Below, one piece after another: positions 11,559 to 14,704 of a stretch of DNA of 43,258 nt. Numbering within the stretch: the stretch's first letter is position 1; each line of letters opens with the position of its first letter. The stretch is from assembly GCA_023267275.1 (NCBI GenBank), contig JAHFNO010000012.1:1-43258 (forward strand), written 5' to 3'. The position numbers and the translations under genes are program-made. The notes below the pieces were generated by a model. It did not search any database, had not been told where the DNA came from, and saw only the letters and a list, made by a program, of their open reading frames with translations. Source of the DNA: Candidatus Nomurabacteria bacterium. Lineage in GTDB: Bacteria > Patescibacteriota > Minisyncoccia > Phycocordibacterales > UBA9973.

Positions 11559-11637
11559 AGAGTTCGAGAAACTTTTTTTCATCGAGAATCGGCACGCCGA
11601 GTTTTTGAGCATCGTCATATTTACTGCCGGGGTTCTC
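11559..11637 (-). pseudogene. Detached 3' end of ligA (about the last 24 codons)
   Basis: Minus strand encodes [28 protein letters not shown], the same tail as ligA. Confidence 0.9.
11579..11635 (-). repeat. 57-bp perfect repeat of ligA 3' region, copy A
   Basis: tcatcgagaatcggcacgccgagtttttgagcatcgtcatatttactgccggggttc, identical to 12708-12764. Confidence 0.97.
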
Positions 11638-11642
11638 TCCTG

Positions 11643-12023
11643 CTACTCTGCTTGTACAAATTCTTTGGCTAAATCTTTTATTAGTTGCTCATAAGCTTCA
11701 TCATGCTTGCCACCTTGTCCCTGGTAACAAAGATGATCTCTCCTGAAAATTCCTTGCAAAACCAAAAGATTGTCTTCGATATCAAGAATAAAAACTACCC
11801 GAAAGCCCCCTGACTTTCCTGTTTTACGAGCTTTATCAGGTAATCGAGAAACCCAACACTCATAACTGGTATTCTGAAAGATTCTTACCTGGATATTGTG
11901 AGGCAAAAGAACATTCCTAAATTCTTCCAACGCTTTCTCATGATATTTATAGTTACTGTCTTCTACTCCTTCCTTTTTCCACCACTTATCGAAGCTGTCT
12001 GTACGTTGAACTTTCCATGTCAT
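11643..12023 (-). CDS. RelE/HigB-like toxin
   Basis: 126 aa with [34 protein letters not shown], RelE-fold-like core; directly downstream of an antitoxin-type gene. Confidence 0.65.
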
Positions 12024-12044
12024 AAAATGAAGTATGAAATAAAA

Positions 12045-12545
12045 CTACACGCAAACATAACTTTCCGAGAAAAATTCTATATCATCTGCATTTTTATAAT
12101 CAAGAGGTTTGCTTGACTGTGAAAATACCCAAGGGGCTTCACTGTGAGTTTGAGCAATCATCTGATCAGTACTCCAATCTTTAAATGTCTCGCAAAGATA
12201 GCAAAGAAGTTTATTTTCATATTCATCGAAAACGGCCGGGTCATACTCCGAAAGTGCTTGAAAGCGATTTCTCTTTCCAAACTTAGAACTCTCATCTTCT
12301 GTTTGAATTATAAGATTATTTTTCTCAGCACTTTTTATAATTTTATCTTGCAAATCTGTTGCAAACGGTCCCATTGGAAGACGAATATATGTTTCTCCCG
12401 TCACACTCAATTTACGATCTCGGTAGGAAATAAAATCAAGATAGTAGAAAAGCTTGTTAAGCTTAGTTATGCCCAACTTTTCATTTCCGCACTTCGAAAT
12501 AAAGTACAGTAATGCGTTTGTGTATTTTTCTTTTTTTATCGCCAT
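12045..12545 (-). CDS. Panacea/SocA-like (DUF4065) antitoxin
   Basis: ITKLNKLFYYLDFISYRDRKLSVTGETYIRLPMGPFATDLQDKI is the DUF4065 signature region. Confidence 0.8.
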   Translation of the reverse strand: MAIKKEKYTNALLYFISKCGNEKLGITKLNKLFYYLDFISYRDRKLSVTGETYIRLPMGPFATDLQDKIIKSAEKNNLIIQTEDESSKFGKRNRFQALSEYDPAVFDEYENKLLCYLCETFKDWSTDQMIAQTHSEAPWVFSQSSKPLDYKNADDIEFFSESYVCV

Positions 12546-12679
12546 ATTTTAATTAATACAACTACTGAGAGATAAGAACTTCAACAAATCAGAGTAATCT
12601 TCCGCAGATAATCTGAAAATCAAGGGTTTTTTCAATACTCTTATAGTACCATATACAAAAACCTAGAGCAATTCAGTTG

Positions 12680-14704
12680 CTACTTCAATAATTCTAAAAA
12701 TTTTTTCTCATCGAGAATCGGCACGCCGAGTTTTTGAGCATCGTCATATTTACTGCCGGGGTTCCCCCCTACAACGACGTAATCAGTATTTTTTGAAACA
12801 GCAGATGCTACTTTTCCGCCGAGTGCGAGAATTTTTTCCTTTGCTTCATCACGAGAAAGTGTCGGCATAGTACCGGTGAGTACAAAAATCTTGCCAGCAA
12901 GTTTGGTGCTTGGTTTTTGGTTTTTGGTTTTTGCGATACTAACCTGCTTCAATAAATCCGTTACAACTTTTTGGTTGTGTGTATCTTTGAAATAACGAAT
13001 AATCGAATCTGCTACTCGTGGACCCACGCCGTTCATAGCTTCCAATTCTTCACGAGTAGCCTTTTGTAATTGAGAAAATGTACCAAAGTGATTTGCGAGA
13101 TCACGTGCTGTCTCTTCCCCTACTTCGGCAATAGAGAGTCCAACAATAAATCGATCGAGTGGTTGTGTGCGAGCTTTTTCAATCGCCGCAAGCATGTTGT
13201 CCACCGATTTTTCTCCCATGCGAGGGAGTTCGAGCAAATCACCTTTTTTCAATGTAAAAATATCCGCTCGATTCGCAATGAGTCCGGCATCGAGTAACAT
13301 ATCCAAATTCTTTGGGCCGAGATGCTCAATATCGTAAGCGTGCTTACTCGTAAAATGATACAGTGTGCGACGATCTTTTGCAGGACAACGTTCATTACCA
13401 CAATAAAGTGCAGCGGATTGTTCGTTGTTTTTTGTTCCAACTGTTTTCTTTGCGAGTGGCGTGCCACATTCAGGGCATTTTTTTGGCATGGAAAATGCCT
13501 TCGAATTTTTCGGACGAAGTTCTGTCAGTACTTGCACAATATCTGGAATAACATCGCCAGCCTTTTGCAAAATGACCGTATCTCCGACGCGCACATCAAG
13601 GCGTTTGATTTCATCTTCATTATGCAGTGTTGCGCGCGACACCATCGAGCCATACACAAGCACTGGTCGCAAATGCGCCACTGGAGTAACGACACCGGTA
13701 CGTCCTACTTGCAGTGCAATGTCTTCTACGACAGTCGTGACCTGCTCGGCTGGAAACTTGAGCGCAATTCCCCAACGTGGAGCCTTCCCGGTATAGCCGA
13801 GTGCTTCTTGGTACTCTCGTTCAGTAATTTTTACTACCACGCCGTCAATCAAATAATCTTCTTTTTCTTTTTTTGCATGCCAGCTATTCCAAAAAGCGAT
13901 TACTTCATCCATGGTTTTACATTGTTTGAAATGTGGATTGACGCGAAAACCGAGTTGCTGCAATTTTCGCAATTCGTCATCTTGATGATCTGGTACAGGA
14001 AAATTTGCGTCAGAAATATCATACACAAACACAGAAAGTTTTCGTTCTGCCACAATGCGCGGATCAAGCTGACGAATCGTTCCCGCTGTAATGTTGCGTG
14101 GGTTCATAAACAATTCCTCACCTTTTTTCTTTTGTTCCTTGTTCAGTTTTTCAAACTGACTCTTTGGCATATACGCCTCGCCTTCGGCAACCAAATTTAC
14201 TTTTTCAGTAAGTGAAAGCGGAACCGCTTCAATCGTCTTCACATTTTCCGTGACATCTTCCCCTACTTTCCCATCGCCACGAGTGGCAGCAGTTTTCAAT
14301 AACCCATTTTCATACGTAAATACAATTTTCAGTCCATCGATTTTCAATTCGGCTGTATAGGTTGGAGAAATTGGCTTGCCGTATTTTTCGGCAAGCATTT
14401 TTTTTACGCGAGTATCAAAGTCACGCATGTCTTCTTCAGAAAACGCATCGTTGAAAGACCACTGCGGAACGCTATGGTGGATCTTTTTAAATCCAGGAAG
14501 TGGAGCACCGGCTACGCGCTGACTTGGTGAATCAGGCGTAATCAATTCAGGAAATTCGCGCTCAATATCTACAAGCTCTTTTTTCAACGAATCAAGAGCC
14601 TCTTCTGAAATAAGGGACTCATTGAGCACATGATAGTGATATCGATATTTTTCAATCGCACTACGAAGTTTTTCGAGTCGTTTTTGGGCTTCGTTTTTGT
14701 TCAT
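12680..14704 (-). CDS. ligA: NAD+-dependent DNA ligase
   Basis: 674 aa; adenylation motif ELKIDGLK, Cys4 zinc finger, HhH, C-terminal BRCT. Confidence 0.97.
12708..12764 (-). repeat. 57-bp perfect repeat of ligA 3' region, copy B (within intact ligA)
   Basis: Identical to 11579-11635. Confidence 0.97.
12903..12930. repeat. Heptamer array in the ligA linker
   Basis: TTGGTGC TTGGTTT TTGGTTT TTGGTTT. Confidence 0.9.

Follow-up and report, generated by a model that had tools for sequence, protein, structure and literature searches.

Our analysis suggests that toxin-antitoxin (TA) pairs can ride into a genome on DNA of a close relative, through ordinary recombination and without a mobile element. 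The case that carries this reading lies in the window, that is, the whole 43,258-nucleotide stretch analysed here, which is contig C4 of a MAG of 1.02 Mb in 33 contigs from an uncultured, ultra-small member of the Patescibacteria. Among named genomes in the collections, a Candidatus Nomurabacteria MAG stands closest to it. Here, a TA operon of 1.1 kb separates two copies of the ligA 3' end. The minus strand reads ligA, a Panacea antitoxin, a 126-aa toxin, a detached ligA tail and a hairpin terminator, with ansA convergent (Table 1). The intact ligA ends at 12680 with TAG and is completed by the attached, donor-type tail. The initial annotation of this single window was right in its observation; what lay outside its view is that the arrangement recurs at two further genes of the same genome.

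Table 1. Features of the ligA junction in the window (contig C4) and related features on other contigs.
Feature	Position	Strand	Basis or content
ligA, NAD-dependent DNA ligase, 674 aa	12680..14704	-	ORF; Pfam DNA_ligase_aden E=2e-83; C-terminal BRCT
Attached ligA tail copy (identical core 12708-12764)	12681..12770	-	blastn self-match 88.9% over 90 bp; 57-bp run
Non-coding leader, ligA to TA operon	12546..12679	-	sequence; without ORF
Antitoxin, SocA/Panacea (DUF4065) domain, 166 aa	12045..12545	-	PF13274 61 bits, E=2e-16, cut-off 25.7
Toxin, 126 aa, predicted RelE/HigB fold	11643..12023	-	alignment of four homologues; AlphaFold2 and Foldseek
Detached ligA tail (VAGE, core 11579-11635, FLELLK, TAA)	11551..11646	-	sequence comparison; downstream like G005
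Hairpin terminator, gap between detached tail and convergent ansA	11519..11548	-	RNA fold -13 kcal/mol, z=-5
ansA-like asparaginase, context	10421..11494	+	PF00710
120-aa ORF (orf120), context	9798..10160	+	G005 homologue at the same place, tblastn E about 1e-13
gatC, next after ligA in relatives (ancestral order)	9435..9713	-	comparison with relatives
Second case, tail duplication of RluF-like gene	C5:12490-14382		cargo: zeta-toxin gene and 56-aa ORF
Third case, tail of PriA-like gene, 94 bp at 100%	C18:3233-6306		cargo: three ORFs, one with SPFH/Band-7 domain
Interspersed repeat, copies	C2:22499, 37212; C22:21353, 43854, 51523; C31:7734; C7:24336; C3:12100; C21:12428; C10:21907; C25:11717; C23:36638		

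The two ligA tails share a core of 57 bp, identical at 11579-11635 and 12708-12764 exactly as first described, and their similarity extends over 90-95 bp at 87-89% identity, fading on both sides of the core. Read on the minus strand, the detached copy encodes a ligA tail down to a stop codon at 11551-11553; it reaches to 11551, 8 bp beyond the start given in the initial annotation. A search of the whole genome found no further copies. Downstream of the core, all seven differing codons are synonymous, the stop included (TAG in the attached copy, TAA in the detached one), and the proposal that the detached copy is an authentic tail with silent changes in its last codons is borne out. Upstream of the core, the detached copy carries VAGE, the family consensus, where ligA itself has VVGG. 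Taken alone this resemblance has a probability of about 0.3% and could be due to chance, so that it is uncertain where exactly the donor fragment starts. Over the pair as a whole, 11 nucleotides differ but no more than two codons do so nonsynonymously (P=2e-4 under neutral decay). Furthermore, given 13 mismatches over a 96-bp alignment, an identical run of 57 bp has a probability of 2e-5 under uniform divergence, and so the mosaic structure of the copies is not a product of chance. The mosaic, in combination with codon differences that are almost all synonymous, indicates that a replacement tail, derived from another functional ligA, arrived with the insert. As to which copy is the native one, the detached tail passes into AAAATAAAAAAGA, just as happens in G005, the nearest relative, and from there into the terminator. 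From the core onwards it is thus probably the native ligA end, as had been supposed from the first reading of the sequence.

The insert contains two ORFs only, the antitoxin and the toxin, and neither a transposase nor a recombinase gene; a phage-integrase profile likewise found no match on contig C4. This agrees with the original description of an insert of about 1.1 kb that pairs a DUF4065 antitoxin with a RelE-like toxin and lacks an integrase, the antitoxin by its match to PF13274 and the toxin by its predicted fold. The toxin has no match in Pfam, NCBIfam or PADLOC and no sequence match in the PDB. Its AlphaFold2 model (mean pLDDT 75) retrieves archaeal RelE and HigB2 as the best folds in Foldseek (1wmi, E=1.4e-4), and the 126-aa protein is predicted on this basis to be a toxin with a RelE/HigB fold. 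Homologous antitoxin and toxin genes are neighbours in four other Patescibacteria genomes. Aligned with these four homologues, which adjoin Panacea genes, the toxin has a complete C-terminus, and its stop codon falls in the junction with the detached ligA tail. The TA promoter probably lies within the leader that separates the operon from ligA. Neither the core pattern nor the antitoxin had a match in viral contigs, plasmids had none to the toxin, and the sole match among phages was to the antitoxin, at 29%, in a Methanobacteriales virus.

The comparison with relatives provides additional clues. Four genomes of the same genus with a ligA gene have a single tail, no TA pair and no ansA at this place; relatives thus have the site empty of the TA pair, a state that the initial annotation proposed to look for, and the arrangement is not one that all of them share. 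The genes commonly found next after ligA in relatives are gatC-gatA. In G005 (84%), the space from ligA to orf120/gatC is taken up by other small genes, which marks the ligA junction as a variable spot. Moreover, ansA occurs at the ligA junction in this genome only: the ansA-like gene has no match in 60 relatives, and one distant match elsewhere in the same genome. The ligA-gatC junction thus appears to have received more than one insert. A ligA tail is present in 214 of the 247 genomes of the order. The search for other genomes with cargo between duplicated ligA tails, also proposed at the outset, came back empty, with no detached tail in any other of the 247. Two of them do have two matches to the ligA tail, but there the extra match belongs to a complete additional ligA gene, and both genomes are MAGs with 6% contamination. 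A recurrent attachment site in ligA is rejected on these grounds.

Could the duplicated tail result from the assembly itself, or from a mixture of strains, by the joining of ligA ends from two lineages? The genome is a MAG with an estimated contamination of 4%, and the pieces of the priA 5' region at C14:6345-6665 and C18:6008-6328, both at contig ends, are 93% identical, pointing either to mixed strains or to a partial second copy. In addition, one relative (L026, G022:C8) has at its ligA 3' end a 77-bp tail that recurs on the other side of a stretch of N, most likely as a scaffolding artefact, and surveys of tail duplications need to allow for such cases. However, contig C4 contains no N, and the contig ends of the present assembly overlap by 117-121 bp. 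The final k-mer was thus about that size and much longer than the 57-bp repeat, which makes a simple repeat artefact, or an assembly collapse, unlikely. The junction between the toxin and the detached tail also has no shared sequence at which an assembler could have crossed over, and no such case emerged when the same scan was applied to G004. We therefore regard an artefact as very improbable.

The same assembly holds several other repeated sequences. Two sequences of 117-121 bp end many contigs: the first at 43140-43258 of the window and at the ends of C5, C7, C9, C18 and C30, the second on C8, C14, C20, C21, C25, C29 and C32. By eye, the second encodes a stretch resembling an IS30-type transposase end, and the assembly may thus be broken there by an IS present in several copies. 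An interspersed repeat of about 100 bp has at least 12 copies in the genome (Table 1), and four stretches scanned, some copies included, gave no Rfam match for it. At C17:2774-18085, a sequence of 80-93 bp appears about six times before successive small ORFs, in the manner of a repeated leader or promoter.

Comparison of each gene end with its surroundings across all 33 contigs identified three chromosomal genes with a detached tail, once intragenic repeats, paralogues, two apparent diversity-generating retroelements and a degenerate repeat of topA had been set aside. In each case the detached tail lies on the same strand, 1.1-1.5 kb downstream, with a small cargo between. Besides ligA, these are an RluF-type pseudouridine synthase gene on C5 and a PriA-like gene on C18, the latter a short contig. 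Toxin genes are carried by two of the three cassettes, and the 56-aa ORF beside the zeta-toxin gene on C5 may be its antitoxin. The homologous part of the C5 tails contains 10 synonymous and one nonsynonymous codon differences (P<5e-5). The synonymous bias in both the ligA and the rluF-like tails suggests that the two copies at each locus evolved as functional ends in separate lineages. Identity between the two rluF tails is about 93-94%, against 59-70% with four congeners; the donor was thus much closer than any sequenced congener. Behind each tail copy on C5 and C18 stands its own, different hairpin terminator, and congeners have single tails at both sites, with other genes there or none.

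Other repeats behind gene ends were set aside. On C2, a repeat of the topA tail (17180-17293), about 100 bp behind the gene and roughly 70% alike, is too degenerate. Tail-like repeats at C22:66240-68770 and C31:46260-48823 look like diversity-generating retroelements, with a variable repeat at the gene 3' end, a template copy 0.4 kb downstream, A-biased differences and an adjoining ORF resembling a reverse transcriptase. The same scan of G004, a genome of the same genus with 809 genes, yielded no case; three here against zero there is suggestive only. A scan of 640 genes at other loci gave no convincing case either, and its match at L052, on reading, looks like an internal repeat in pilin-like genes and was rejected.

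In an alternative scenario, the ligA tail would first have been duplicated within this genome, the TA pair being inserted between its copies later and the copies diverging afterwards. Short tandem duplications are common in bacteria, and a TA pair bracketed by direct repeats fits such a history. Nevertheless, a copy released in this way would be expected to gain nonsynonymous changes, whereas those observed are nearly all synonymous (P=2e-4 for ligA, P<5e-5 for the C5 tails). Moreover, the divergence of the ligA copies is not uniform (P=2e-5), and the C5 and C18 copies have different terminators behind them. We thus hold duplication within the genome to be very unlikely as the first step, and the synonymous bias and the mosaic support the original proposal of a replacement gene tail over a decayed tandem duplication.

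The recurrence also bears on the integrative element whose expected footprint the initial annotation had recognised in this arrangement. Part of that view stands, namely the TA content, the site empty in relatives and the replacement tail. An element specific for the ligA 3' end does not, given the lack of a recombinase, the empty search of the 247 genomes and two other inserts at unrelated genes. A non-autonomous site-specific element could still be envisaged, integrated in the ligA 3' end like e14 in icd, supplying a replacement tail and served by a recombinase in trans. A synonymous replacement tail is indeed the footprint left by e14 (PMC2973815), and three tyrosine recombinases of the phage-integrase type are encoded elsewhere in the genome. 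Yet none of the three lies on C4, C5 or C18, and the three inserts have no end or core sequence in common above shuffled controls. Together with a ligA site that does not recur across the order, this argues against one site-specific element, which we consider unlikely, if less so than the two preceding alternatives.

In this context, we put forward that DNA of a close relative, comprising a gene end and its cargo, was taken into the chromosome through homologous recombination at the tail of the gene, with no need of a dedicated recombinase, an explanation that we regard as probable though well short of certain. In favour of it are the mosaic tails, the synonymous bias, the single-tailed relatives without cargo and the same geometry at three unrelated genes. 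The course of events, as we infer it, would begin with a fragment from a sister lineage that held the last part of its ligA and the TA genes behind it, taken up by ComEC-type competence. The genome encodes ComEC, and natural transformation with linear DNA has been shown in Saccharibacteria (PMC10633639). The fragment could have been closed into a circle and integrated into the chromosome by one homologous crossover. Recircularised linear fragments integrate by one crossover in E. coli, with partial target duplications of 109-950 bp (PMC3240628). Alternatively, a linear fragment could have undergone homologous recombination at one end and illegitimate joining inside the native tail at the other. 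Either route would yield the native ligA with a donor tail, followed by the TA operon and by the native tail, now displaced but keeping its terminator, and the same process may have operated at all three loci, each receiving an incoming gene end, terminator and cargo. Once in place, the TA pair might be retained since loop-out between the tails would cost the cell its antitoxin and so be punished, which might also explain the over-representation of TA cargo (two of three). Two points count against recombination of this kind: the shared block of 57 bp is short for RecA between otherwise diverged flanks, and the genomes compared yielded neither a donor nor a circle, nor a conspecific strain with an empty site.

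How TA modules move between genomes off plasmids, phages and transposons is an open question, and it is this question that the present loci address. A more general proposal is that in some Patescibacteria conserved gene 3' ends serve as landing pads, with small addiction cassettes spreading from strain to strain by carrying the end of a neighbouring core gene as a portable homology handle. We offer this speculatively and think it rather doubtful. If true, TA modules would move without mobile-element machinery, and the duplication would be held in place by addiction. The footprint is readable in a streamlined genome, with the donor gene end, the cargo and the displaced native end all still visible, and a large-scale test is possible in the form of TA enrichment among gene-tail-bracketed cassettes across many genomes.

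Several known systems resemble these loci in part. Many toxin types are known as partners of Panacea antitoxins (PMC8832971), and the present pair is like these PanAT systems in joining a Panacea-domain antitoxin, with PF13274 above cut-off, to a small adjoining toxin-fold gene as a conserved pair; it differs in a toxin without a match to a curated family, whose RelE/HigB fold comes from a predicted structure only. Transposons and insertion sequences differ from the ligA insert, which has no transposase gene. In E. coli, e14 likewise supplies a replacement 3' end to a protein-coding gene with mostly synonymous differences: when e14 is lost, icd changes at ten synonymous positions and two nonsynonymous ones (PMC2973815). 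However, e14 is a prophage of 15 kb, while the ligA insert has 1.1 kb, no recombinase and no recurrent site. Single-crossover integration of recircularised linear DNA in E. coli (PMC3240628), like homology-facilitated illegitimate recombination, also leaves foreign DNA flanked by a homologous end that is duplicated in part; this was seen in the laboratory with plasmid DNA, whereas here the event is deduced from its footprint and the TA cargo would come from a relative. The present case works like the insertions of restriction-modification genes in Helicobacter pylori, where the target duplications are long, vary in length and measure some 100 bp; these insertions were interpreted as addiction modules moving with no mobile element to carry them (Nobusato et al. 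2000, as presented in PMC1643837, PMC3874152 and PMC3031569). As far as these later accounts describe them, both systems involve a small addiction-type complex missing in relatives, without mobile-element machinery and between direct repeats of about 100 bp; at ligA, the flanking repeats have 90-95 bp and derive from the host gene end, and the insertion is missing at the same place in relatives. By the same accounts the cargo is a restriction-modification complex there and a TA pair here, and the present repeats stand apart in lying at gene 3' ends, as mosaics of two functional lineages, at three loci of one Patescibacteria genome. What is new is the TA cargo, the lineage-mosaic tails and their occurrence at three loci in a single genome of this group.
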